Assembly (NCBI RefSeq): GCF_015351075.1
Contig: NZ_JADKRS010000003.1
Span: 310,001 to 374,000, forward strand
Length of the DNA: 64,000 nucleotides
Direction of reading: 5' to 3'
From: Clavibacter sp. VKM Ac-2873
Lineage (GTDB): Bacteria; Actinomycetota; Actinomycetes; Actinomycetales; Microbacteriaceae
The translations under genes were made by a program, and so were the position numbers. Under the pieces are notes generated by a model that was not told the DNA's origin, made no database searches, and worked only from the letters and a program-made list of their open reading frames with translations. Each line of letters begins with the position of its first letter. Within the stretch, counting starts at the first letter, position 1. This document shows positions 26,443 through 39,460 of the stretch, one piece after another.

Positions 26443-27633
26443 ATGACCACGTCCGATCGCCGACCGGGGGCCGCCGACGCACCCGCATCCGCGCGCCTGC
26501 CCGTCGTCGTGGTGGGCGCCGGCGTCATGGGCGCGCTGTGGATCCGGATGCTCGCCGACTCCCCGCACGCCGCGCTCGTGGGGGTCGTCGACCTCGACGT
26601 GCCGCTCGCGGAGTCCGCCGTGCGCGAGGCCGGGCTCGACGGGATCGCCGTGGGCGCGTCCGTCGCCGAGGTCGCCGCGCGCTCGGGTGCCCGGGCCGTG
26701 GTGAACGTGACCGTGCCGCAGGCGCACCGCGTCGTGAACGAGCAGGCGCTCCGCGCGGGCCTCCCGGTGCTGTGCGAGAAGCCGCTCGCGCCGACCGTCG
26801 CCGAGGCGCTGCGCCAGGTCGCGCTCGCCGACATCACCGGCGGGCTCCTCATGGTCAGCCAGTCGCGCCGGTACTTCACGCACCTCACCGCCTTCCGCGC
26901 GGCCGTCGCGCAGCTCGGGCCGCTCGCGGTCGTGCACGCGCAGTTCCTGCACGAGGACCACGAGCCCGGCTTCCGCGAGCAGATGGCGCATCCGCTGCTC
27001 GTCGACATGTCCATCCACCACTTCGACCAGCTGCGCTACGCGACGGGCGAGGAGCCCGTGGCCGTGCGCTGCAGCTCGTGGAACCCTCCGTGGAGCTGGT
27101 TCGCGGGCGATGCCGCGGCCACCGCCGACTTCGAGCTCGCGTCCGGCGCGCGCTTCGCGTACGTCGGCAGCCGCTGCACGCCCGGCATGCCCACCTCGTG
27201 GAACGCCGACTGGCGCGCGTACGGCGAGCGCGGCGCGGCGCACTGGGACGGCGACGACGTCGTCGGGCTCGACGTCCCGGGCGGCCGGTTCGACGTGCCC
27301 GCGCACCCCGAGGGCATCGCCGCGTCGCTCGAGGAGTTCGTCGGATCCCTCCGCGCCGGCACCACCCCGCCGACGGAGGTGCGGCACAACGTGCTCAGCC
27401 TCGCGATGGTGGAGGGCGCGATCCGCAGCAGCGAGCGGGGCGGGGGGCGCGTCGTCATCGCCGACCTGCTCGAGGACGCGCTCGCCCAGGCCATCGCCGA
27501 CGAGCGGAGCGCCGACGTCGCCGATGCGCTGCGCTCCTGGACGAGCGCGGCGGACGGCATCCGCACGCCGGCCTGGGGATCCGCGCCCGCCGCCACCCCG
27601 CCCGCCCCGACCGCCCCGCGCGACGCCCGCTGA
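26443..27633 (+). CDS. Gfo/Idh/MocA-family oxidoreductase
   Basis: A 396-residue NAD(P)-dependent sugar dehydrogenase. The Rossmann part has VVVVGAGVMGALWIRML and the signature CEKPLAPTVAEAL; the catalytic region of the C-terminal domain has VDMSIHHFDQLRYATG, with the conserved Asp and His pair. The last 30 residues are Ala/Pro-rich. It lies just upstream of the GH2 hydrolase, 98 bases apart, on the same strand, so the two probably form one unit for hydrolysing a glycoside and oxidising the freed sugar. Confidence 0.88.
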   Translation: MTTSDRRPGAADAPASARLPVVVVGAGVMGALWIRMLADSPHAALVGVVDLDVPLAESAVREAGLDGIAVGASVAEVAARSGARAVVNVTVPQAHRVVNEQALRAGLPVLCEKPLAPTVAEALRQVALADITGGLLMVSQSRRYFTHLTAFRAAVAQLGPLAVVHAQFLHEDHEPGFREQMAHPLLVDMSIHHFDQLRYATGEEPVAVRCSSWNPPWSWFAGDAAATADFELASGARFAYVGSRCTPGMPTSWNADWRAYGERGAAHWDGDDVVGLDVPGGRFDVPAHPEGIAASLEEFVGSLRAGTTPPTEVRHNVLSLAMVEGAIRSSERGGGRVVIADLLEDALAQAIADERSADVADALRSWTSAADGIRTPAWGSAPAATPPAPTAPRDAR

Positions 27634-27731
27634 CCGACGCGCCCGCCTCCCGTCCGGCGCCGTCCCATCCCGCCGCGGCAGGCTGGCCTCGACCGCACCT
27701 CCCCTCCGTCTCGACAGAAGGAAGCCCGATC

Positions 27732-29588
<1,857 letters not shown>

Positions 29589-29610
29589 CCGGCTGCCGCC
29601 GCGATCCTGA

Positions 29611-30734
29611 TGGATCACGAGCGCCGGCTCTCGTACCCGGCGACTCACTCTCCCCGGCCCCGTTCCGCTGGACAAGCGTGTCGACGACGAGCTGTCCAGC
29701 GCAGCACGCGTCGCGATCACCGTGGCAACGCGAATGGCCGACCGGCTTGCTCGTACACGCGAGGAGGCCGCTCGCACCGGGCAGGGCCGCTCCGAGCACG
29801 AGGTGAAGCAGCTCCAGCAGCGCCTCAGGGCCGAGCGCGACGCCGCAGTGGCGAAGGTCTCCGTCGTCGAGCGGCCCGAGTACTGGGAGCGCTCGTCCCT
29901 CATGGACCAGGCGTCCATGCACGAGACCGCGCAGCAGTGGAAGGACGCCGACCCGCGGGCCCAGGCAGCCTCCGAGACCATCGGCCGGGAGCTGCGCGAG
30001 CGATACGGCATCGACGTCACCAACCCGCAGGCGAACCCCGACGCCGTGCGCGCCGCCCTCCGCGAGCGTGCCGACGTGGAGGCAGCACAGAACGCGGCGG
30101 CAGCGGAGAAGTCCGGACGCGGCGAGGCGGCCGTCGAGACGGCCCTCGGCGGCGCCGCGCTCGACGAGGCCGCACGGCTCGACGCGCGCGCCGCGTCAGA
30201 GCGCAACGACGGCCAAGCCATCGCCACCGAGCCGAACGCCGATGTCGACACCAGACGAACCGATCGGGCCGCCGAGCTCGAGCTCCAGGCGCGCGAGTAC
30301 GACTCCCAGGCCGAAGCCGGTGGCGACATCGCCGGTCCCACTCCGGACGAGCTCCGTGAGCTCGCCGAGGACGCCCGCACGCAGGCGCAGCTCCACCGGG
30401 AGCCTGCAGAGGTCGGCGCCGCGCAGAGCGCCCCGCAGCAGGCCGCACAGGCCGGCGCCGAGACGAACGCCGCCAGCGACCAGGGCCCGCGAACGCCGAG
30501 CGCAGCGCGGGGGAGGCCCACTACGACAGCGCTGAGCGTCAGACGGCGATGGCCGCCGAGCTCGGCCGTCGGGGGGTGCCCCAGCAGACCGTCGACGTCC
30601 GCATGCGCGCCGAGGTCGCTCACGGGCGGCCCGCCTCCGAGGCACCCGTCCAGGGGCAGCAGGTGAACGTGCCGCAGACCAAGCGCGGCCGCGGCGCGAA
30701 CCGCGCCACGGAGCGCATGCAGCAGGACCGGTGA
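29611..30734 (+). pseudogene. 5'-truncated, frameshifted conjugation/plasmid-type gene
   Basis: The frame is open from 29611, right after the GH2 stop region, and already reads like protein before any start codon (VPLDKRVDDELSSAARVAITV), so the 5' part is probably missing; GTG 29722 is the first start. It continues through helical, Ala/Glu-rich sequence (EYWERSSLMDQASMHETAQQW, GRELRERYGIDVTNPQANPD). Near 30481-30495 the frame shifts by one base; the downstream frame ERSAGEAHYDSAERQTAMAAE runs to TGA 30732-30734. It ends with one GV[PS] motif unit shared with the next gene. Probably a remnant of a conjugative or mobilisable element; no catalytic motif is left. Confidence 0.6.
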
Positions 30735-30895
30735 CGACGACGAGCGACGCCCGTCCGGCGACTACAGAGCGCTGGACCGAGTACCGGCAGATGCGCGACA
30801 ACGACGCAGCCCGAGCCGCCCGCGGGGCCCCTCTCGTGAGGAAGCCTCCAGCGACTCCTACTACCGAGACGACATCGGCAAGCCGGGGCGCATGA
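30731..30895 (+). CDS. Small ORF linking the two motif-repeat genes (possibly 5' part of the next gene)
   Basis: A 54-codon frame from GTG 30731, overlapping the previous stop (GTGA), to TGA 30893-30895, overlapping the next ATG (ATGA). The first 33 codons (RPATTERWTEYRQMRDNDAA) look coding, but after about 30830 the frame of the next gene (REEASSDSYYRDDIGKPGR) looks more protein-like. A single lost base could have split one gene into two. Confidence 0.4.
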   Translation: MTTTSDARPATTERWTEYRQMRDNDAARAARGAPLVRKPPATPTTETTSASRGA

Positions 30896-31431
30896 CCAGT
30901 CTCGGATCCAGAGTCGACCGGGACCACGAACCACCCCGCACCATCGCCGAGGAGAAGGCATTGATGCAGGCCGACGTCGACAGGCAAGTCACCGCTCTCA
31001 GCGATGCCGGAGTCCCGCCGGAAGCGATCTACGTCCAGATGCGGAGCCACCTCGCCGCGACCATGGCCGCCCAGATGCAGCGCGACGCCCAGGCCGCGGA
31101 GCTGCTGTCCTACCAGGGGGTCTCAGCCGAGACCCTCACCGCCCACATGCAGGCCTCGATCGAAGCTGGAGACGCCGTGGTCGCGGACCTTCGTGATCGC
31201 CTGCTCGCGCCCCAGGCAGATCCGCGACAGGAACGCGCGGACTCGCTGAGGGAGCTCGGCGTGCCCGAGGCCGCGATCGCGGCTCAGATGCGCGCCGGTG
31301 CCGCCACCCCGAGCGTGACGACGCAGGCCACCCCGAGTACCGCAACCGCTGATGCGCCACAGACGCGAATGGCGCGGCTCGCAGCTCGAGTCACGGGCCG
31401 CAGCGCGCCGCACGCGGCCGCCGAGAGGTAG
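30892..31431 (+). CDS. Repeat-motif protein of unknown function (GV[PS]-x7-M[RQ])
   Basis: A 179-residue cytoplasmic protein with three units of the pattern L-x3-GV[PS]-x7-M[RQ]: GVP at residue 40 with Met50, GVS at 76 with Met86, GVP at 123 with Met133. A fourth unit occurs in the broken gene upstream (GVPQQTVDVRMRA). Each unit should be a helix-turn-helix hairpin. The C-terminus is Thr/Ala-rich and basic. It lies at the end of a conjugative-element remnant and is followed by a strong hairpin terminator at 31450-31477. I do not recognise the family. Confidence 0.55.
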   Translation: MTSLGSRVDRDHEPPRTIAEEKALMQADVDRQVTALSDAGVPPEAIYVQMRSHLAATMAAQMQRDAQAAELLSYQGVSAETLTAHMQASIEAGDAVVADLRDRLLAPQADPRQERADSLRELGVPEAAIAAQMRAGAATPSVTTQATPSTATADAPQTRMARLAARVTGRSAPHAAAER

Positions 31432-31449
31432 CCGGGCGAACACGCAGAA

Positions 31450-31477
31450 GGGGGGGAGCGCGAATGCGCTCCCCCCC
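31450..31477. terminator. Bidirectional hairpin terminator
   Basis: GGGGGGGAGCGC (31450-31461) and GCGCTCCCCCCC (31466-31477) form a perfect 12-bp stem with loop GAAT. It separates the plus-strand repeat-motif gene from the minus-strand coupling-protein tail whose stop is at 31484-31486, and could end transcription from both sides. Confidence 0.8.
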
Positions 31478-31483
31478 CCCTCG

Positions 31484-31567
31484 TCATGCTCGGTTGGGGT
31501 ACTCCTCGTCGTCGTAGATCCCCGATGGCTGCCCACCCGGCTCGACGAGCGCCGATGATGGCCGCTG
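31484..31567 (-). pseudogene. Coupling-protein (VirD4/TraG-type) C-terminal fragment, copy 1
   Basis: Only the last 27 codons are recognisable: RPSSALVEPGGQPSGIYDDEEYPNRA and TGA at 31484-31486. They match the tail at 37066-37149, where the same ending follows a TraG-like domain, in 18 of 27 residues by my count. Upstream of 31570 the sequence turns AT-rich and unrelated, so the rest of the gene is gone. Confidence 0.65.
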
Positions 31568-31680
31568 CGTGGGGGTCGTACGCGTTATCGGACATAACGT
31601 AAATTATCTGCACAATTCAACGAGCATCATGGAAGCTCACAGCATGGCTGTATTGAGGTCGTACGCGGCCCTGGCGCATT

Positions 31681-31712
31681 GGATGCCAGTGCACGAATGT
31701 GCACAGGCATCC
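31681..31712. repeat. Hairpin: GGATGCC-A-GTGCAC / GTGCAC-A-GGCATCC
   Basis: Two arms of 14 bases pair except for one central A-A mismatch, around a GAAT loop. It is the first of three strong hairpins downstream (minus strand) of the Rhs/immunity pair. It may stop transcription from either side or be a folded RNA element. Confidence 0.6.
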
Positions 31713-31743
31713 TCTGTTATCAGAAGCTAGGGGTATTGCCGAC

Positions 31744-31776
31744 GATGAGGCGTCAGTTGGACGCCGACGCCTCATC
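31744..31776. repeat. Hairpin: GATGAGGCGTC / GACGCCTCATC
   Basis: A perfect 11-bp inverted repeat with an 11-base loop. It lies between the other two hairpins in the non-coding 31.57-31.85 kb stretch, which has no gene I can support. Confidence 0.6.
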
Positions 31777-31798
31777 TACGATGAGACGACTGCAACGC

Positions 31799-31832
31799 AA
31801 TCGGCTCCAGCAGTTGCATGCTGGAGCCGATT
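31799..31832. terminator. Terminator-like hairpin after the candidate immunity gene
   Basis: AATCGGCTCCAGCA and TGCTGGAGCCGATT form a perfect 14-bp stem with a six-base loop, 24 bases beyond the stop of the small membrane gene on the minus strand. It probably ends the Rhs-immunity transcript. Confidence 0.75.
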
Positions 31833-31855
31833 TGGCGTTTAACTCAACGCTGATT

Positions 31856-32047
31856 CTACTTGCGCGTCTTACCTACCTGAACCGAGCCGCGGACCACGAC
31901 GACAGCGGTCATGATGATAGCTACGACGAGGAGGGCGAGGATGATGATTTTGAGAGCACCATCTTCCATGTAGTTGAGACCCAGGACAGCGAGGATCACT
32001 TCTACCGCGAGTATGACAAGGTAAAGAATTAACATGGGGCGTTTCAC
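31856..32047 (-). CDS. Two-helix small membrane protein, candidate Rhs immunity protein
   Basis: A 63-residue protein from GTG 32047. Two strong membrane helices, about residues 5-24 (MLILYLVILAVEVILAVLGL) and 32-52 (LKIIILALLVVAIIMTAVVVV), are joined by a short acidic loop (NYMEDGA) and end in a basic tail, so both ends face the cytoplasm. It starts 14 bases after the Rhs stop, the usual place for the immunity gene of a polymorphic toxin. A membrane immunity protein would suit a membrane-active toxin tip. No homolog is recognised; the immunity role is inference from position and topology. Confidence 0.6.
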   Translation of the reverse strand: MKRPMLILYLVILAVEVILAVLGLNYMEDGALKIIILALLVVAIIMTAVVVVRGSVQVGKTRK

Positions 32048-32061
32048 GAGGTTCTCTTCTC

Positions 32062-35000
32062 TTAATCACATTGTGCGTTGATGTCGGCAATTGCGTATCC
32101 CAGGCCGCCGACAGAAGCAATGAAGCCGATTGCTGCGGCTGCTCCTGCGAACACGGTGGGAGCGCCGACAACGACTCCGACCCCGGAGGCAAGAACACCG
32201 ATAGCCGCAAGAATACCGAATGCGATGGCCCCTGCACAGTTGAGGCCGGTGGGATCGGAGTTGTTGATCGGGTTGCATGAGGCGTAGGCGTAGGGCTGCT
32301 TCTCCTGGCCGCTGGGATCCATCTGCGTGAAGCGTCCCAGGGTGGCGTCGTAGTAGCGCGCGCCCATCTTGTACAGGTTGGTCGACTCCTGGTAGCCGCC
32401 GATGTAGCGCAGCGAGTTCAGTGCGACCGCGCTGTTGGTCGACGTCGCCCGCTCCTCGCCGTAGGGGCTGTAGGAGTACCCGCCTTCCCAGATGCCTGCA
32501 CCTGAGAACATGCCGATGACAGAGCCGAGCAGATCGGAGACGTAGTAGTGGCTGGACGAGATCCGGAAGCCGACTGCTTCGCCGTCATCGGTACGGCTGT
32601 AGTTCTGCACCAGGCTGGCAGACGTGTTCGTCTGGCGTGAGAGACCGAGTAGCGAGTTAGAGAAGGACCGGCCCCCGGTGGCGCTCTGGGTGTCCGTGTT
32701 GCCCTCGCCGAAGGCGGCGAAGTTCGTCGCTCCGATGCTCTGGACCTGGCCGCGGTCACCGTAGGTTGCGACGGCGCCGGTGATGCCGTTCTTGACCTGG
32801 TTGCCGGCGGCGTCGTAGACCCACTGGGTGGTGTCGTCGCTGGAGCCGACGAGTTGGTTGGCGGCGTTGTACCGGTAGTCCGTGGCGGTGTCCTGCGCTC
32901 CGCCAGTACTGCCGGCGCGGATCTGCGAGAGGCGGTTGCCGGCGGCGTCATAGGAGTACGCCCACATGGCGTTGGTATTGCCGCCGGCCTTCTCCTCTGC
33001 GATCTCGAGTCGGTTCAGCGAGTCGTACTGGTACGCGGTCACCGCGCCGGCGGGGACGCCTTCTTCCTTGCCGCTGACGCGGGTCTGGATCGTGGTGGTG
33101 TCCTTGCCGTCCTTCGCATACGTGTAGGCGACATCAGCGGTCACGTTGCCGGCGGCGTTCTTGGCTTGCACCTGGGTGGTGCGGCCGGACTTGTCGATGG
33201 TGGTGACCATCTGTGCGCCGGCCGGGAACACGCGTCGGGTCTCTGCACTGTTCGCGTTGTACTCGAAGAGCGTGCATCCGCTGTTCGCGGCGGGGTTGCC
33301 GCTGGTGGGGCAGACTCCGCCGGGCTCGCGCTGGGTGACGAGCTCGTTGGCACCGTTGTAGGTGTTGGTCGTGACGCCGCTGGTGTCCTCGAAGGTGAGG
33401 ATGTTCCCGGCCGCGTCGTAGCTGTACTTCTGGTTGAGGCCGGCGAGAGCACCGATCTGGCTGGTGGTGTTGCCGAGGGTGTCGTACTCGTACTGCTTGG
33501 TCCCGGCGAAGCTGTCGGAGTCGTACTGGACGAGTCCATTCGGGTAGTACGTCTTCGCGAGGGTGCTGCCGTTGGCGAACGTGATGACCGTCTGGCGGTC
33601 ACGGACGTCATACGCGTACTTGGTCACCTTGCCGCGCGGGTCGGTGACGCTGGTGACGCGAGAGAGCGCGTCGTACGTGTACGTCGTCGCACCCTGCGGC
33701 GCCGGCGGGGTGACCTTGATCAGGTTGTACATGCCGTCGTAGTTGTAGCGGGTGACGTTCCCGTTTCCGTCCTTGGCGGAGCAGAGCTGGCCCGGGGAGC
33801 CGCCACAGATGGTGTGGTCCCAGTTGTCGTACACGCGCTCGAATTCGACAGCGCCGGTTCCACCGGCGGTGGTGTCCGCCTTCTTGGTGGGGTTGCCGGC
33901 GGCGTCGTAGTCGTAGCTGGCGGTGTTGCCGCTGGCGTCGGTGGAGCACTTGACCTGGAAGGAGTCGCCGCCGCTCGAAGCGCAACCGGCGCCAGCCGAG
34001 TACACGGCGGAGGCTGCGGCACCGGTGGGCAGCTCGGTCTTCGTGGCGTTGTTGAGGCCGTCGTACTGGAACTTGGTGTCATTGCCGGGCGTGCTGCCGG
34101 ATCCAAGAGCGTCGGTCGAGGTCTGGATGTCGCTGTTCGCGGTCCAGGTCTGCGAGCGGGTGCGGTTCAGCGGGTTCTTGGTGGAGGTGACGCGGCCCTG
34201 GTTGTCGTACGTGAAGGTCGAGGCCTTCCCGTTCGGGTTGGTGACGACGGTGTTGCCGCTGTTGTACGCGAAGTTCGTGACGACGTCGGCCTTGTCCCCG
34301 TACGTCGGGGAGGTGGACTTCTGCGTGATCTTGGTGACCTTGTGCGCGGTGTTGTAGCCGAACGTGATCGTCGTCGTACCGGGCGCGGACGGCACGGTCA
34401 GCGTGGAGAGCCGGCCCGTGGTGTCGTACGTCATCGTGGTGACGGCACCGCCGGGCTTCTCGATCTTCGTCAGCTGGCCGGAGCCGTTCCGCGTGTACGT
34501 GGTCGTGCGGTTGGCCGAGTCGAGGATCGAGGTGATCTTCGGGTCCGTGCCGGTGGTGTGGTTCACGCGCGTGAAGCGGCCGGAGGTGTCCTTGACCGCG
34601 TAGGTCGTGGCGGACGTGGTCCAGTCGTTGGTGAGGCCGATGCCGTTGCGGTCCACGTGGTAGATCAGACGCTTCGTGTTCACGTCGAAGTGGTAGGCCT
34701 CGCCGTTCTCGTTGTAACGCAGCTGCCAGGTGAACTCGCCCTTGTTGAGGGTGGCCTTGAAGCCGGCCGGGGCGGCCCAGGCGCCGCTGCTGTTCTTGGT
34801 GAACTTGGCCTGGAACCCGTTCGGGCCGACGAAGATCGCTTCGGTTTCGCCGCTGTTCACGGAGAGGCCGAAGTCCATGTAGCTCATGACGGAGGACCAG
34901 CCGCCGCCGAGGGCGCCGGCGGAGCTCGAGAGGCCGTTGTAGAACCGGTCTGCGCGGACGCCGATGCCCGCGGCCGAGCTCGTGCCGTCGTTCGCGGTCA

Positions 35001-35466
35001 GGAGCAGGTTGCCGTTGGCCACGTTGACGCGGGCGACCGTGTCGTCGGAGAGCGTGATGTCCTGGAACGACATGTAGGGCAGTGCGCCGAGTCCTGGCGC
35101 GCCGACCGGCGTGCCAGCCGGTGCGCGGTTGGCGGTCCCTGCCTTGGTGAGCGAGCGGTCCGAGCTTGGGATCTTCCACTCGGTTGGCTCAGCCGCGGGC
35201 GTGCCCGCATCGGCCGGCTCCGCCGAAATGCTGCCGGGCGTCCAGACCGCGTCCTTAGCGGCCTTCTGGGCCTCGTCCTGCATCTGCTTGTTGACCTGCG
35301 CAGGATCCTGCGTCTGGTCCTCGAACTGGACCGGCCCTGCGGCGGTCTCGGCGGTGGCCGGCAATGCGCCAAGCCCCGTGATCATCACGGTGCTCGTCGC
35401 GATGATCGCGATCGTGCACCTCACTTTGCCGGCCGTACGCCGGCTCAAGACGCGTTGACCGCGCAT
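32062..35466 (-). CDS. Secreted Rhs/YD-repeat protein with hydrophobic C-terminal tip
   Basis: A 1134-residue protein. Residues 1-40 are a twin-basic Sec-type signal peptide (TIAIIATSTVMITGLGALPATAETAA). A linker of about 100 residues precedes a long array of YD repeats (YDYDAAGNPTKK, YTYDALSRVTSV, YSYDAAGNILTF) that in the family builds a closed cocoon. The Rhs core ends with RYIGGYQESTNLYKMGARYYDATLGRFTQMDP and NNSDPTGL, after which the variable tip begins. Here the tip is only about 60 residues: glycine-rich, hydrophobic, two helices, one Cys near each end (NCAG and QCD). That resembles a membrane-inserting peptide rather than a nuclease. A small membrane gene follows directly. Preceded by GGGGAG. 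Confidence 0.9.
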   Translation of the reverse strand: MRGQRVLSRRTAGKVRCTIAIIATSTVMITGLGALPATAETAAGPVQFEDQTQDPAQVNKQMQDEAQKAAKDAVWTPGSISAEPADAGTPAAEPTEWKIPSSDRSLTKAGTANRAPAGTPVGAPGLGALPYMSFQDITLSDDTVARVNVANGNLLLTANDGTSSAAGIGVRADRFYNGLSSSAGALGGGWSSVMSYMDFGLSVNSGETEAIFVGPNGFQAKFTKNSSGAWAAPAGFKATLNKGEFTWQLRYNENGEAYHFDVNTKRLIYHVDRNGIGLTNDWTTSATTYAVKDTSGRFTRVNHTTGTDPKITSILDSANRTTTYTRNGSGQLTKIEKPGGAVTTMTYDTTGRLSTLTVPSAPGTTTITFGYNTAHKVTKITQKSTSPTYGDKADVVTNFAYNSGNTVVTNPNGKASTFTYDNQGRVTSTKNPLNRTRSQTWTANSDIQTSTDALGSGSTPGNDTKFQYDGLNNATKTELPTGAAASAVYSAGAGCASSGGDSFQVKCSTDASGNTASYDYDAAGNPTKKADTTAGGTGAVEFERVYDNWDHTICGGSPGQLCSAKDGNGNVTRYNYDGMYNLIKVTPPAPQGATTYTYDALSRVTSVTDPRGKVTKYAYDVRDRQTVITFANGSTLAKTYYPNGLVQYDSDSFAGTKQYEYDTLGNTTSQIGALAGLNQKYSYDAAGNILTFEDTSGVTTNTYNGANELVTQREPGGVCPTSGNPAANSGCTLFEYNANSAETRRVFPAGAQMVTTIDKSGRTTQVQAKNAAGNVTADVAYTYAKDGKDTTTIQTRVSGKEEGVPAGAVTAYQYDSLNRLEIAEEKAGGNTNAMWAYSYDAAGNRLSQIRAGSTGGAQDTATDYRYNAANQLVGSSDDTTQWVYDAAGNQVKNGITGAVATYGDRGQVQSIGATNFAAFGEGNTDTQSATGGRSFSNSLLGLSRQTNTSASLVQNYSRTDDGEAVGFRISSSHYYVSDLLGSVIGMFSGAGIWEGGYSYSPYGEERATSTNSAVALNSLRYIGGYQESTNLYKMGARYYDATLGRFTQMDPSGQEKQPYAYASCNPINNSDPTGLNCAGAIAFGILAAIGVLASGVGVVVGAPTVFAGAAAAIGFIASVGGLGYAIADINAQCD

Positions 35467-35772
35467 TTTGCTCCCCTAGTCGTGAGTGGGCATCGTCACC
35501 CGTTCCTCAAGCTAGGGGTTTCCTAACAGTTCGGCCTCAAATCGCTGTTTTCACCCCCCACTTCTGGGGCGCTAATCGGCCGGACGCCCCTGTGGGACAC
35601 AGGGGGTGATCGTTTCGCAAGTCAGCGAAAGGGGGGACAAGCTGCATCTGGCGCTGGGCGCGAGCGGCGCCGGGGCTAAGTTGATGAAATGGGTAGTAGT
35701 GGCGCCTGACGGGTGGCCATGATGTGCACCGTGGGTACGAGAATCGTGCCCTGGGAAATCGGGGACAGAAAC
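35467..35772. promoter_or_regulatory. Divergent promoter region between Rhs and protease genes
   Basis: A 306-bp non-coding stretch. It holds CCCCTAG at 35473-35479 repeated in inverse as CTAGGGG at 35512-35518; a perfect hairpin CCCCTGTG-GGA-CACAGGGG at 35587-35605; and TTTCGC-N6-GCGAAA at 35613-35630. These are plausible operators shared by the two secreted-protein genes. I cannot place -10/-35 boxes with confidence. Confidence 0.5.
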
Positions 35773-37014
35773 ATGCGAGCACGTCAATATTGGATCACCG
35801 CTGCCGTGATTACGGCACTCGGAATTACGTCAGTCGCCCCAGCGTACGGGGCGGGGAACAGTCACGCTTTCGGAAAGGCGTCTACCAAAGTCGCCGTAGG
35901 TGAAATGGACGCTGAGTCACAGGATGCGGCTTTCATCGCGGAGGCCACCGGACGACCGTTTGAGGAGGTGTACGCGGAGAAGCACCGTCACATGCTCTTC
36001 GGGCAGGCACTCGCGAAGCTGCAGAGCGTCGACGGGTTCGCGTCCGCCGGCAAGGACGCCACCGGACCCGGGTACTGGGTCGCCTTCTCCGGCGACGTAC
36101 CCGCGGGCGCGCTCGAGCCGTTGAACGAGCTCGCGTCCGACGTGCGCACCACCACGGACGCGCCCCTCACCGCTGAGGAGCGATCGATTGCTGTCGCCGC
36201 CGCAGCCCAGAGCGTGCAGGCGCAGCTCGGTGCCGAGAGCGTCGAGGCCAGCATGAGCGAAGACGGCACCACCATCACCGCCGCAGCCGTCCTCCCCGCC
36301 ACCGCGCCCCTCACCGAGACCAGCGGCGCCGCGGCCGCAGGACAGGCCGCGGCCGAGGCCTCCGTCGACGGCGCGGCGCAGGTGCAGGTGCAGGTCGAGG
36401 TCGCTCTGACCGACGACGCTCCGGAACAGGAAGTCCTCTCCGGCGGCACGGCACTCGGCCTCGGCACCACCAGCCAGCTCGCCTGCACCGCCGGATTCAC
36501 CGTCCGGAACGCCCGCACCGCGGCCACCGGCCTCATCACTGCGTCCCACTGCCCGGACGACCTCAACTACGAGTCCCGCCCCATCCTCACCTTCGAGGGC
36601 CGCGGCGACAGCGCCCAGCTCGACCAGCAGTGGTTCAGCTCCACCGAGGCCGCGCAGGGCGAGTTCATCAGCCAGAAGGCCGGCTCCACCCTTCTCCGCC
36701 GCAAGGTCACGGCCGTCGCCGCACCCTTTGTCGGCATGTCGGTCTGCAAGTACGGCACCGTCACCGGCAACGGCTGCTCGACCGTGATCAACGGGCCCAC
36801 CACCACGGTGAACGCGAACGGCGTCACCTACGGGAACCTCTGGCAGGTCCAGAGCTACATCACTGCCGAGGGTGACAGCGGCGGCCCCTGGTTCTACGGC
36901 ACCACCGCCTACGGCATCCACTACGGCAACGTCCCCCGCGACGGCTCCGACCGCAGCGCCTTCACCTCGGTCACCTCGATCGAGGCAGCCACGGACCTGC
37001 GCGTCCTGCGCTAG
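35773..37014 (+). CDS. Secreted trypsin-like (S1) serine protease
   Basis: About 413 residues from ATG 35773, which follows GGGGA. Residues 1-29 are a Sec signal peptide (WITAAVITALGITSVAPAYG). A 200-residue propeptide-like region (Ala/Glu-rich) precedes the protease domain. The catalytic His259 lies in TASHC, Asp284 in AQLDQQW is the likely Asp, and Ser369 is in GDSGGPW. Cysteines near the His (CTAGF, SHC) and in VCKYG and GCST could form the usual two disulfides. It resembles streptogrisin- or Clavibacter Chp/Pat-1-type secreted proteases in general build, though longer. It is divergent from the Rhs gene, and could process Rhs or act independently. Confidence 0.87.
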   Translation: MRARQYWITAAVITALGITSVAPAYGAGNSHAFGKASTKVAVGEMDAESQDAAFIAEATGRPFEEVYAEKHRHMLFGQALAKLQSVDGFASAGKDATGPGYWVAFSGDVPAGALEPLNELASDVRTTTDAPLTAEERSIAVAAAAQSVQAQLGAESVEASMSEDGTTITAAAVLPATAPLTETSGAAAAGQAAAEASVDGAAQVQVQVEVALTDDAPEQEVLSGGTALGLGTTSQLACTAGFTVRNARTAATGLITASHCPDDLNYESRPILTFEGRGDSAQLDQQWFSSTEAAQGEFISQKAGSTLLRRKVTAVAAPFVGMSVCKYGTVTGNGCSTVINGPTTTVNANGVTYGNLWQVQSYITAEGDSGGPWFYGTTAYGIHYGNVPRDGSDRSAFTSVTSIEAATDLRVLR

Positions 37015-37026
37015 CCCGCGCGGCAC

Positions 37027-37065
37027 GACGAAGGCCCGCCGCTCACAGAGTGGCGGGCCTTCGTC
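37027..37065. terminator. Bidirectional terminator after the protease gene
   Basis: GACGAAGGCCCGCC (37027-37040) pairs perfectly with GGCGGGCCTTCGTC (37052-37065) around an 11-base loop. It ends one base before the coupling-protein tail's stop codon on the minus strand, and so can serve both convergent genes. Confidence 0.85.
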
Positions 37066-37500
37066 TCAGGCCCGGTGTGGGTACTCGTCGTCGTCGTAGA
37101 TCCCCGGTGGTTGCCGGTCGGGCTCGAAGAGCGCCGCCGGCGGCCGCTTGTAGGGCAGCGGCTGTGTGCTGCGAGAAGTCGTTCTCCCGCACGCCGCCGA
37201 GGTACGCGAACACGTCGGACGCGGAGAAGAGCTTCAGCATGCCTTCCTTGCCGAACACCGCGACGCCCTGCGACCAGGACTGGAAGACCGACATGATCGG
37301 GTCCCGCGCGACCCGAAGTGCGAGCACAGGTCAAGTCCCGCCACCGGCACACGTTCGCGGCCTCGTCGAGGATCCCGACCAGCGGCGCCCGCATGCGGCC
37401 GCCGGCGCTGCCGTCCGCGAGGGCCGTTGCCGCCTCGAGGGTCGCCGCGGTGAGGGCGGTGACGAGAGGGCCGGTCGTCCTGCGGGCCGCGACATCTGAC
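37066..37500 (-). pseudogene. VirD4/TraG-type coupling protein, C-terminal remnant (copy 2)
   Basis: Reading from about 37497 down the minus strand: VTALTAATLEAATALADGSA, then RAPLVGILDEAANVCRWRDL, typical of the TraM-recognition/ATPase region of coupling proteins. The frame then shifts to CSHFGSRG, shifts again to IMSVFQSWSQGVAVFGKEGM and LKLFSASDVFAYLGGV, breaks at ENDFSQHTAAA, and resumes as PYKRPPAALFEPDRQPPGIY to the TGA at 37066-37068. So at least three frameshifts or deletions have inactivated it. Intact proteins of this family deliver DNA to the conjugation channel. The same tail occurs at 31484-31567. Confidence 0.8.
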
Positions 37501-37519
37501 CCGATATGGCTCTTCGCAC

Positions 37520-37571
37520 GACGAGAGCCCGCCCCCGCGATCCATCCGGACCACGGGGGCGGGCTCTCGTC
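37520..37571. terminator. Terminator of the sugar ABC operon
   Basis: GACGAGAGCCCGCCCCCG (37520-37537) and its exact reverse complement (37554-37571) form an 18-bp stem with a 16-base loop, 15 bases beyond the permease stop on the minus strand. Confidence 0.85.
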
Positions 37572-37586
37572 GGGGGCGCGCCCGCA

Positions 37587-38468
37587 TCACCTCCCGGCGA
37601 GCGACCCGCCGATCCCGCCGACGCTGAAGTACTTGTTCAGCAGGGCGAAGATCAGCACGGGCGGCAGCATCATGATGACCGCGACCGCCATCACCGAGCC
37701 CCAGTCGGCCGCGTTCTGCTGGAAGAACGTGTTGAGGCCGATGGGGAGGGTGTACTTCGTGAAGTCCTGCAGGAACAGGAGCGCGATCAGGTAGTCGTTC
37801 CACGCCAGCAGGAACGAGAAGATCGCGGTCGACAGGATGCCCGGCAGGGAGTTCCGCAGCACGACGTGGATGAAGCCGCTGAACACGCTCGCGCCGTCCA
37901 TCCACGCCGCCTCCTCGAGGGTGATGGGGATGGAGTCGATGTAGGCCGCCATCATCCAGATCGCGACCGACATGGTCGACCCGATGTAGATGATCGCCAC
38001 GCCCTGCAGCGTGTTGATGAGCCCGAGCGCCGAGAACGTGATGAACAGCGGGATCGCCGCGGTCACCACCGGCAGGGCCTGCACCACGAACAGCACGAGC
38101 GAGTACCCGGAGACGAGCTTCGACCGCGAGCGGCTGAGCACGTAGCCGGCCGGCGCCGCGATCACGACCGAGACGAGCACGGTCACGAGCGCGACGATGA
38201 GGCTGTTTCCGAGCCAGATCATCACGTCGGTGCCGCCGAGCACGCGCTCGAAGTTCTCGAACGTGAACCCGGTGGCCGTGGAGTTCTGCCCCGGCTGGGT
38301 GGAGAGGAACAGCACCGCGAGGATGGGCGTGATCACCACAAGCGTGATCACCGCGATGAGCAGGAAGCGCCACCACTGGCCCTTCTGCTCGCGCTGCTTC
38401 GCGGAGGTCCGCTTGACGCCCCCGAGGGTCGCCGACGTGGCGCCCCCGACGGCGAGTGCCTGGCTCAT
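37587..38468 (-). CDS. Carbohydrate ABC transporter permease, MalG type
   Basis: A 293-residue inner-membrane permease with six helices after a 30-residue hydrophilic N-terminus. The EAA loop that contacts the ATPase reads LEEAAWMDGASVFSGFIHVVLRNSLPG. Its ATG overlaps the stop of the MalF-type gene (ATGA), so the two are co-translated and form the heterodimeric channel. No ATPase gene is in this operon, as usual for actinobacterial sugar importers that share MsiK. It is the last gene before the terminator at 37520-37571. Confidence 0.92.
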   Translation of the reverse strand: MSQALAVGGATSATLGGVKRTSAKQREQKGQWWRFLLIAVITLVVITPILAVLFLSTQPGQNSTATGFTFENFERVLGGTDVMIWLGNSLIVALVTVLVSVVIAAPAGYVLSRSRSKLVSGYSLVLFVVQALPVVTAAIPLFITFSALGLINTLQGVAIIYIGSTMSVAIWMMAAYIDSIPITLEEAAWMDGASVFSGFIHVVLRNSLPGILSTAIFSFLLAWNDYLIALLFLQDFTKYTLPIGLNTFFQQNAADWGSVMAVAVIMMLPPVLIFALLNKYFSVGGIGGSLAGR

Positions 38469-39460
38469 TCGATGTCCGCCTTCTTGATCTGCCGGTACAG
38501 CAGCGTCGACACGAGGACGAGCACGGCCGTCATCATGAAGGCCACCGCGGTCGCCGGGCCGGTCTGCAGGTTCTGGAACGCCTGCTGGTACGCCAGCACG
38601 ATCAGCGACGTCGTCGCGTTCACGGGACCGCCCTGCGTGAGCAGGAAGATCGTCGGGAAGTCGTTGACGCAGAAGATCGTCATCAGCACCCAGCTGATGT
38701 ACGTGGTGCGGGAGATGATCGGGAGGGTCACGCCGCGGAACGCCTGCCACGCGCTCGCGCCGTCCATCTTCGCCGCCTCGTAGACGTTGGTGTCCACCGA
38801 CGCCAGCGCCGACGACATCATCATCAGCATGAACGGGAAGCTGATCCACACCTTGAAGACGCAGACCACGATCTGCGCCAGCACCGGATCCCCGAGGAAG
38901 TTCGCGTCGGGGAACCCGAGCCTGTCCAGGATGATCGGCACCGGGCTCTGCGGCGTCGCCACCAGCCAGTTCCACGAGGTCGCCGAGACGACCACGGGGA
39001 CGATCCACGGCAGGAGGAGCAGCACCTTGAAGAACCCGTTGCCGGGGATCCGGGTGCGCAGCAGCAGCGCCAGCGCGAGCCCCACGATCCACGACCCGAA
39101 CACGCCCACGACCGTGAAGACGATCGTGAACGTGGTCGCGTTGCGGAACGACTCCGAGGTGAGCACGTTCGCGTAGTTCTCGAACCCGACGAACGGCGTC
39201 TGCCACGGCAGCGTCGACGGCGTGCCCTTCTGGAGGGACTGCAGGAACGAGTACACGACCGGGTAGACGTTGAGCAGCACGAGCAGGAGGAGGGACGGCA
39301 GCGCGAACAGCGCCAGCGTCTTCCCCGCCCGGCCGAGCGGCGTCTTCCCGCGGCCCGTCCGCGGCGCGCTCGGCGGGCGGCCGGGGCCGGCCACGCCGAC
39401 GCCGCGGCGGGCCAGCCCGATCTTGTCCGCGACGCGGGTGTCGCGGGTGTCGACGGCCAT
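38465..39460 (-). CDS. Carbohydrate ABC transporter permease, MalF type
   Basis: A 331-residue permease. Residues 1-45 are a hydrophilic, Gly/Arg-rich cytoplasmic extension; LALFALPSLLLLVLLNVYPVVYSF begins the first of six membrane helices. The EAA loop is VYEAAKMDGASAWQAFRGVTLPIISR. It works with the MalG-type permease, whose start it overlaps, and with the binding protein encoded 42 bases upstream. The transported sugar is not readable, but the operon also encodes an Idh-like sugar dehydrogenase. Confidence 0.92.
   Translation of the reverse strand: MAVDTRDTRVADKIGLARRGVGVAGPGRPPSAPRTGRGKTPLGRAGKTLALFALPSLLLLVLLNVYPVVYSFLQSLQKGTPSTLPWQTPFVGFENYANVLTSESFRNATTFTIVFTVVGVFGSWIVGLALALLLRTRIPGNGFFKVLLLLPWIVPVVVSATSWNWLVATPQSPVPIILDRLGFPDANFLGDPVLAQIVVCVFKVWISFPFMLMMMSSALASVDTNVYEAAKMDGASAWQAFRGVTLPIISRTTYISWVLMTIFCVNDFPTIFLLTQGGPVNATTSLIVLAYQQAFQNLQTGPATAVAFMMTAVLVLVSTLLYRQIKKADIE

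Follow-up and report, generated by a model that had tools for sequence, protein, structure and literature searches.

In a 64,000-nucleotide stretch of Clavibacter sp. VKM Ac-2873 (contig NZ_JADKRS010000003.1, positions 310,001 to 374,000; hereafter the window), a minus-strand gene encodes an Rhs protein that ends in a short hydrophobic tip, and it is followed closely by a gene for a small protein with two transmembrane (TM) segments. An earlier note on this DNA had proposed that the tip is a membrane-active toxin and the small protein its immunity partner. Our analysis favors this reading, a membrane-acting tip with a cognate membrane immunity protein, with a probability of about 0.77. It draws on features read from sequence: the exchange of tip and small gene as a cassette, selection, a rule of position for small TM genes, a rule of two cysteines in the tips and an Asp/DPxGL motif in the Rhs core. 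The features on which the argument turns are the following.

32062-35466, minus strand: Rhs (YD-repeat) open reading frame (ORF) of 1134 amino acids (aa), read from the translation.
32065..32241, minus strand: C-terminal tip of 59 aa, N1076-D1134, a candidate membrane toxin (sequence, hydropathy, model).
32048..32061, minus strand: gap of 14 nucleotides (nt) between the Rhs stop codon (ends 32062) and the GTG start of the next gene (begins 32047), from the sequence.
31856..32047, minus strand: two-TM protein of 63 aa with a GTG start, a candidate immunity protein (ORF, hydropathy, model, dN/dS).
31726..31855, minus strand: non-coding tail with two long hairpins, AATCGGCTCCAGCA...TGCTGGAGCCGATT and GATGAGGCGTC...GACGCCTCATC (alignment with the related genome G015).

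The tip follows L1075, the leucine of the DPTGL motif, and reads NCAGAIAFGILAAIGVLASGVGVVVGAPTVFAGAAAAIGFIASVGGLGYAIADINAQCD. It is rich in glycine and alanine and in G/A-xxx-G spacing, carries Cys1077 and Cys1133 at its opposite ends, and contains neither Arg nor Trp. Its hydrophobic segments, counted from the boundary leucine, cover residues 7-25 (mean Kyte-Doolittle hydropathy 2.39) and 31-49 (1.83). A single-sequence AlphaFold2 model of the 59-mer has helices at residues 3-26 and 29-58 (mean predicted local distance difference test score, pLDDT, 73.1; predicted template modeling score, pTM, 0.40), and that of the small protein has helices at 2-26 and 30-60 (pLDDT 83.9, pTM 0.58). The earlier note had described a glycine- and alanine-rich tip of about 60 residues with two hydrophobic segments and a cysteine near each end, and a 63-residue protein with two membrane helices 14 bases downstream; both descriptions were borne out. 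A purine-rich, ribosome-binding-like sequence, AAGAGAAGAG, begins within the Rhs stop codon, extends into the gap and is common to G015.

Database searches did not assign the tip to a known family. No match in Pfam, NCBIfam, PHROG or the PDB explained it, and phmmer against PDB chains returned nothing at an E-value of 5, so no homology to the C-terminal (CT) fragment of the Rhs toxin Tse5 was found. When 23 tips were compared with Pfam families of class IIc bacteriocins and glycine zippers, a lone glycine-zipper match appeared at 0.55 and no bacteriocin family at an E-value of 1. The hidden Markov model libraries gave no usable match for any of the tips or small proteins, and we ascribe to hydrophobicity the scattered hits (E-values 0.0002-1) that small proteins had in unrelated membrane families. 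The small protein has no Trp and so lacks the WxW motif that, together with an Arg between two TM helices, defines the two-TM immunity family Imm17 in the table of PMC3482391 (this and the other papers cited here are used from their accessible parts).

Same-genus alignments show tip and small gene being exchanged together, as a single cassette. The Rhs gene is 80-88% identical in DNA to six same-genus loci, and its last matching base lies at 32264 in the G015 main gene, 32222 in G012, 32242 in G016, 32228 in G008, 32263 in G003 and 32242 in G005, the boundary leucine starting at 32244; past the tip boundary none of the six loci could be aligned. In G015 the window-type tip is found not on the full-length Rhs protein but in an orphan module behind an Rhs gene with another tip. 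This module consists of about 277 core codons, the tip, the small gene and the tail, and matches the window from 33073 to 31726 at 87.8% identity. It begins about 1.3 kb past the main-gene stop, and the stop of its tip lies 2.3 kb past the same point. The tail hairpins hold their position in the orphan, with homology extending to 31726, and possibly mark the transcript end; a terminator scan of the minus strand over 31726-31855 gave no site, and a promoter scan found nothing. Genome G158 carries a full-length Rhs gene plus an orphan core end with a different tip and a different small gene.

By direct search, tip and small gene were found in the identical 2 of 18 genomes of the genus, adjacent in both. 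In a family sample of 398 genomes, for which G015 was not drawn, each matched the window and one further place weakly, the weak small-gene match lying inside a 472-residue open frame (G020, L009). The earlier note had expected that Rhs proteins with near-identical cores and different tips would differ in the small gene as well; this holds, in that the matches break at the boundary, a membrane-type tip usually has a TM ORF of its own, and twins share both. A tip conserved without a small membrane gene, which the same note named as telling against the proposal, was not seen among the 18 genomes of the genus. The 600 bases that cover tip and small gene (31800-32399) have a GC content of 57%, versus 60-76% elsewhere in 27000-39000, measured in 600-base steps, as expected for a recently acquired cassette. 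Swappable tips and orphan modules are familiar from the way in which Rhs systems exchange their parts. PMC3482391 mentions standalone toxin cassettes as partners in recombination. A role of the small gene as holin or export partner was considered and rejected, since it leaves the cassette exchange with the tip unexplained.

Codon comparisons indicate that tip and small gene both encode selected proteins. The small protein of G015 is 92% identical to that in the window, with 19.5 synonymous and 6.5 non-synonymous changes (ratio of non-synonymous to synonymous rates, dN/dS, 0.087), and the small genes of the twin pair G012/G008 give a dN/dS of 0.067. The tip is 89% identical in G015, with 8 synonymous and 8 non-synonymous changes (dN/dS 0.36), and the 276 core codons beside it show 62.8 synonymous versus 36.2 non-synonymous changes (0.147). 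In the G012/G008 tips, codons 1-60 of 61 differ by 9 synonymous and 0 non-synonymous changes, the last residue being L or V.

We searched for the core end beyond these loci. Within the genus, a close core is present in 7/18 genomes and any match in 10/18; in the wider samples, matches were obtained in 35/398 genomes of the family (1e-6), 11/327 of the order (1e-10) and 20/384 of the class (1e-12), and in 36 plasmid records of PLSDB, including 21 from Streptomyces and 10 from Clavibacter. The first set consists of 69 distinct Rhs ends from chosen loci, divided into set A (core score of at least 50 bits, 42 ends) and set B (below 50 bits, 27 ends); L079 and L023, shorter copies of L093 and L053, and the repeated tip of L067/L071 had been removed from an initial 72. 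Eight weak-core places (three in G232 and one each in G193, G394, G315, G390 and G042) and L030 (G131) stand outside it. For the plasmid set, whose prediction was fixed beforehand, 19 of 37 records were taken; the remainder comprised 10 from Clavibacter and 8 of other origin, most of which belong to a species or strain series already represented; the partial match L099 was skipped, and the 12-aa stub L103 is included among its 16 places. The class set was processed with the same script, skipping duplicates and a partial place in the overlapping loci L140/L114. A tip was called membrane-type when it was 45-100 aa long, hydrophobic and poor in charges. As a two-TM partner we counted any ORF that is 40-140 aa long, has two TM segments (called from hydropathy windows and not by a trained predictor) and starts from -40 to +120 nt of the Rhs stop. 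Because tips of the later sets are related to earlier ones (L112/L099/L140, L103/L085/L115, L108/L109/L117), these sets are not fully independent, and for the same kinship the first two sets were clustered by similarity.

Across the three sets, a two-TM ORF lies right behind 51/68 membrane-type tips, as compared to 2/86 control gene ends; even an ORF of 30-140 aa with one TM segment or better follows only 5/86 control genes. The first set shows such an ORF at 29/35 membrane-type tips versus 5/34 other tips (Fisher p 1e-8). This count takes L067 as membrane-type though it is only cut by the locus end; without it, the figures are 29/34 for the two-TM ORF and 31/34 for the cysteine rule described below. 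Set A has a two-TM ORF at 32/42 ends (29 at a stricter threshold) and set B at 2/27, both of them membrane-type (L036 and L047); L067, L036 and the second tip of L047 come from this weak-core set, in which the long tips have a two-TM ORF in 0/23 cases. When the 42 regions downstream of set-A ends were shuffled by dinucleotides, 0/840 (strict) or 4/840 (relaxed) contained such an ORF, versus 29/42 or 32/42 observed, so the two-TM ORF is not a product of chance. Among the plasmids, 11/16 places are membrane-type, 7/11 of them with a two-TM ORF, which was also found at 3/5 of the other places. The class set contains 22 membrane-type tips among 28 places, 15/22 with a two-TM ORF and 4 more with a one-TM ORF; the 6 remaining places have 0 two-TM ORFs. 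Tips and small proteins co-vary over 43 pairs (Mantel r 0.56, 0/5000). Together with the boundary breaks, the orphan module and the purifying selection, this rule of position lends support to the toxin/immunity pairing put forward in the earlier note.

Several loci show unusual arrangements of such small genes. In L002 (Microbacterium marinilacus), positions 410-1571 hold one Rhs end and then three different two-TM ORFs in series, possibly an immunity-gene array directed at several tips. In L051 (G230), the tip frame is broken at the boundary (DPQV) and a two-TM small ORF starts at +49, perhaps an immunity gene that has outlived its toxin. In L045 (G261), beyond the Rhs gene and a weak two-TM ORF, there is a coreless, hydrophobic, tip-like ORF framed by cysteines and then another two-TM ORF; these two may be a tip/immunity pair that has no Rhs shell. 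As for annotation, the PLSDB table, itself incomplete, lists no feature for the matching small gene on four S. californicus plasmids; on certain other plasmids the gene is annotated as hypothetical.

Exactly two cysteines are present in 62/68 membrane-type tips (31/35 in the first set, 10/11 on plasmids and 21/22 in the class set). When the same total of cysteines was scattered at random over the first set, the mean was 9.3 and the maximum in 100,000 trials 21, versus 31 observed. The tips are mostly unalignable: an alignment of 23 has no invariant column and a mean column identity of 21%, and the 46 tips of the first two sets fall into 14 similarity clusters, 12 of them with two cysteines, one cluster of 22 being joined by chaining. 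Hydrophobicity, helix-packing glycines (287 G/A-xxx-G motifs in first-set tips versus 243±10 in shuffles) and the counted cysteine pair are the only features the tips have in common, and the rule held in the later sets (31/33). The recurrence of this pair over dozens of mostly unalignable actinobacterial tips is the most general feature observed, and the earlier note had missed it. The cysteines of first-set tips lie either 6-36 residues apart, in most cases as an inner pair on both sides of the turn, or 44-67 apart, as an end pair like that in the window. Either arrangement could hold two antiparallel helices together as a hairpin, and, provided that the protein is exported, the pair is most naturally read as a disulfide. 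End-pair tips often come with a third cysteine, which precedes the predicted cut site by about 11 residues: in the first set it accompanies 15/17 end-pair versus 2/12 inner-pair tips (p 3e-4), and in the class set 7/11 versus 1/10. This cysteine corresponds to Cys1064 in the window, with relatives' core ends reading YA[AGS]CNP or YA[AM]CDP, and possibly forms a mixed disulfide that holds the tip in the shell.

Two further kinds of cysteine-bearing tips were encountered. A separate tip family, less hydrophobic and about 96-111 aa long, has four cysteines spaced along it, with CxxxC near the start, and occurs in L050, L084 (the 106-aa tip), L104 and L120; a small TM ORF lies behind it (one-TM in L120), and three members scanned gave no Pfam match. 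The genome of the window also encodes a second Rhs protein of 2272 residues with a tandem orphan core end (L055; G000 contig C1 695000-707000), and both of its tips end in GDHYHV[DE] with a cysteine pair before it, have an enzyme-like look and match no convincing Pfam family.

A number of results weigh against the proposed pairing. No two-TM ORF was found within the set distance at 6/35, 4/11 and 3/22 membrane-type tips of the three sets. Most such tips of the first two sets have a one-TM ORF instead, as behind L041, L059, L099, L105, L106 and L112, and one, the G015 main gene, has an inverted two-TM gene behind it; L045 and one L084 tip are followed by an ORF with one strong and one weaker segment, judged by eye, and L122, L139 and the first tip of L141 (where only 277 bases are left) have no small TM ORF within reach. 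Conversely, two-TM ORFs also stand behind five non-membrane-type tips (L058, L050, L051, L084 and L094), and by the counts for the first set and the plasmids, greasy tips are not alone in having TM partners. By the positive-inside rule, only 21/30 two-TM proteins have the N-terminus inside, with 8 outside and 1 tie. The co-variation of tips and small proteins rests largely on twins: the Mantel r falls to 0.16 (3/5000) without two near-identical twins, and only 4/17 tip-similar pairs have similar small proteins, versus 29/821 dissimilar pairs; as far as these sequences tell, it is real and weak outside the twins. The tip's dN/dS against G015 is just 0.36, from 8 and 8 changes. Both structure models were built from single sequences, and the best Foldseek match of the tip model has an E-value of 6.9, which is no evidence. 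Finally, the frequent third cysteine in cores with the end-pair layout makes the bonding pair ambiguous.

The remainder of the Rhs protein can be divided as follows.

35347..35466, minus strand: predicted N-terminal Sec-type signal sequence, about aa 1-40, MRGQRVLSRR...ATSTVMITGLGALPATAETA (by eye).
32473..35346, minus strand: YD-repeat (Rhs) shell with DUF6531 at aa 147-217 (Pfam).
32242..32472, minus strand: Rhs-associated core with a predicted aspartyl autoprotease (TIGR03696, aa 999-1075).
32317-32319, 32254-32256 and 32275-32277, minus strand: D1050, D1071 and the boundary cysteine Cys1064, in the core end.

Pfam PF05593 (RHS repeats) matches the protein in 11 stretches at 3.4e-47, DUF6531 at 4.3e-7 and TIGR03696 at 5.3e-21, the last residue of this match being the DPTGL leucine. 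The motif PINNSDPTGL, of the PxxxxDPTGL type, ends at L1075, and the aspartates D1050 and D1071 are present with a spacing of 21. Comparable signal-like starts were seen by eye in 10/16 of the relatives listed. In a PDB search with the whole protein, the Rhs pore-forming toxin Tse5 (8cp6) ranked first (2.2e-21, best stretch aa 557-901), and teneurin and teneurin-like chains ranked behind the Rhs chains with weak matches only (1.5e-7 to 1.5e-4); the protein is about half as long as the teneurin-like PDB 9pt5. Pfam and NCBIfam contained no PAAR or other N-terminal module of the type VI secretion system (T6SS) for it, and no LXG domain was among its Pfam matches. By repeats and core, the Asp/DPxGL motif, a variable tip and orphan modules, all read from sequence, it is a predicted polymorphic toxin of the Rhs/YD-repeat type. 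Beside its gene start lies a plus-strand ORF (35713-37014) with a GDSGGPW motif, for which Pfam gave one sub-threshold match to an unrelated family; from that motif, we take it to resemble a secreted trypsin-like protease. With aa 970-1134 as the query, the best PDB alignment was to the salivary gland surface proteins SGS1 and SGS4 (1.3e-11) and takes in the core end and the first residues of the tip. This agrees with PMC3482391, where a bacterial connection of the insect salivary SGS proteins is discussed.

We infer the following mechanism for the pair. The signal sequence would export the Rhs protein, whose YD shell would fold around the greasy 59-aa tip and keep it soluble. The conserved aspartates and DPxGL motif suggest that the core aspartyl protease cuts after L1075, and the two-cysteine rule suggests that, outside the cell, a disulfide between Cys1077 and Cys1133 clasps the two helices into a hairpin. 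Released at a neighbor cell, the hairpin would insert from outside, pack through its G/A-xxx-G faces and, by analogy with EsxX, Tse5 and the C-terminal domain (CTD) of BiTLP, depolarize or permeabilize the cytoplasmic membrane. Protection of the producer would come from the 63-aa protein in its own membrane, which may block insertion or assembly by helix-helix contact. We commit to this mechanism because of the Tse5 cleavage motif, the BiTLP and EsxX precedents, the enrichment of G/A-xxx-G motifs and the hairpin model of the small protein.

Within the same toxin/immunity frame, the hairpin-insertion step could be replaced by a receptor-bound one: a bacteriocin-like tip, forming no pores by itself, would bind a lipid precursor or a membrane protein in the target cell, which it would jam or open, and the small TM protein would shield the receptor. 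This alternative concerns that step only, and its standing is not exclusive of the probability given above; we consider it a possible but weaker account, autonomous insertion being favored by about two to one. The high diversity of the tips and the several architectures of their partners (one or two TM segments) speak for docking, and the ionophore toxins of contact-dependent growth inhibition (CDI) exploit integral membrane proteins, with immunity proteins that are highly polymorphic (PMC11630599). Against it, the tips have no separate entry domain, the mature piece is only 45-100 aa and mostly hydrophobic, and the closest tested case, the BiTLP CTD, permeabilized E. coli.

Two other explanations depart from the toxin/immunity frame. 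The tip might anchor the Rhs shell on the surface of the producer, with the small gene as its partner in anchoring or export; a hydrophobic hairpin at the C-terminus could have this role, and the small gene is tightly linked and has a hydrophobic product. We nevertheless find an anchor improbable, as the predicted autoprotease would remove it, an anchor needs neither wholesale replacement on shells whose DNA is 80-88% identical nor orphan modules with a partner, and exactly two cysteines are not required. Still less probable is that the tips are leftover translocation (entry) helices of larger enzymatic toxins, decayed or non-functional. It is the case that in large Rhs tips of the same genus a soluble domain is often preceded by a hydrophobic helix at the start (L055, L067, L068 and L071) and that the frame is broken in L051. 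Decay is hard to reconcile with the purely synonymous changes in the first 60 codons of the G012/G008 tips, and most tips end cleanly with two cysteines and small TM ORFs, of which the long set-B tips have none with two TM segments.

If a membrane-acting tip with its immunity protein is the correct reading, Clavibacter-like bacteria, Microbacterium, Arthrobacter and Streptomyces would carry a swappable repertoire of membrane toxins on secreted Rhs proteins, and immunity genes of often about 50-80 codons may escape annotation. Short hydrophobic tips may likewise slip through toxin catalogues, since these are built largely from alignable domains. A broader idea, which we put forward only tentatively and think unlikely to hold in full, is that secreted Rhs shells of Actinobacteria are a general vehicle for a large unrecognized class of disulfide-clasped hairpin bacteriocins. 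Their sequence would be free to change under an arms race as long as the two cysteines hold, their immunity would be reduced to one or two helices, and a mixed disulfide of the Cys1064 type would place their release under redox control. Such minimal toxin/immunity pairs offer material for studying specific recognition among short TM helices.

Among known systems, Tse5/Tsi5 of the Pseudomonas aeruginosa T6SS is alike in that a YD shell encapsulates a membrane-active C-terminal fragment, an aspartyl protease is present, the leucine fits DPxGL, and an immunity gene, tsi5, is known. In Tse5, D1141 and D1164, spaced by 23, drive the cleavage at L1168-I1169 that is required for toxicity (PMC10684867); we matched the Asp pair of the window protein to Tse5 by motif and not by direct alignment, which was made with other Rhs-type core ends. 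Tse5 differs in its T6SS delivery and a CT of about 16 kDa, and the window protein in its signal-like N-terminus, 59-aa tip, cysteine pair and Gram-positive source. The BiTLP of Bacillus inaquosorum is likewise a Gram-positive YD-shell protein with a hydrophobic CTD, and nearly all such teneurin-like proteins have an extra gene downstream; its CTD inhibits growth and renders E. coli permeable to propidium only if exported (PMC13018210). It differs in being far longer and in having one predicted TM segment (residues 2165-2185), and the accessible part of PMC13018210 shows no two-cysteine rule, polymorphic hairpin family or small TM partner for it. In an alignment with PDB 9pt5 ('Teneurin-like protein', which may or may not be BiTLP), a cysteine lies three residues past its DPSG.

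Tox-WTIP (Zhang et al. 2012, PMC3482391) is a predicted pore-forming tip with two membrane-spanning helices, found with RHS repeats. It differs by its RxxR and Wx[ST]IP motifs, its restriction to proteobacteria at that date and, in the accessible part of that paper, the lack of a listed immunity protein; the tip in the window, having neither Arg nor Trp, is ruled out as a member. The glycine-zipper toxins EsxX and TelE (LXG proteins of the type VII secretion system, T7SS) and CdzC/CdzD resemble our tips in having helices that depolarize or permeabilize membranes and in partly membrane-bound immunity (ExiCD, CdzI), and EsxX acts from outside and is stopped by the membrane proteins ExiCD but not by soluble partners (PMC12744356). 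They differ in T7SS or type I (T1SS) delivery and in the soluble TipE and ExiAB, and the accessible text of the TelE paper contains neither 'cysteine' nor 'disulfide'. The CDI ionophore toxins are polymorphic membrane toxins with cognate polymorphic immunity; they are five-helix bundles with separate entry domains, carried by CdiA, which is not an Rhs protein, and come from E. coli isolates (PMC11630599). The earlier note knew of no described Rhs tip of this kind. That stands for the two-cysteine hairpin class, of which our literature search, covering also its spread in Actinobacteria and its coupling to minimal one- or two-TM partners, found no description; it does not stand for membrane-active tips on YD shells as such, since Rhs toxins with swappable tips, membrane-active tips (Tse5, the BiTLP CTD and, by prediction, Tox-WTIP) and TM immunity proteins are already known.

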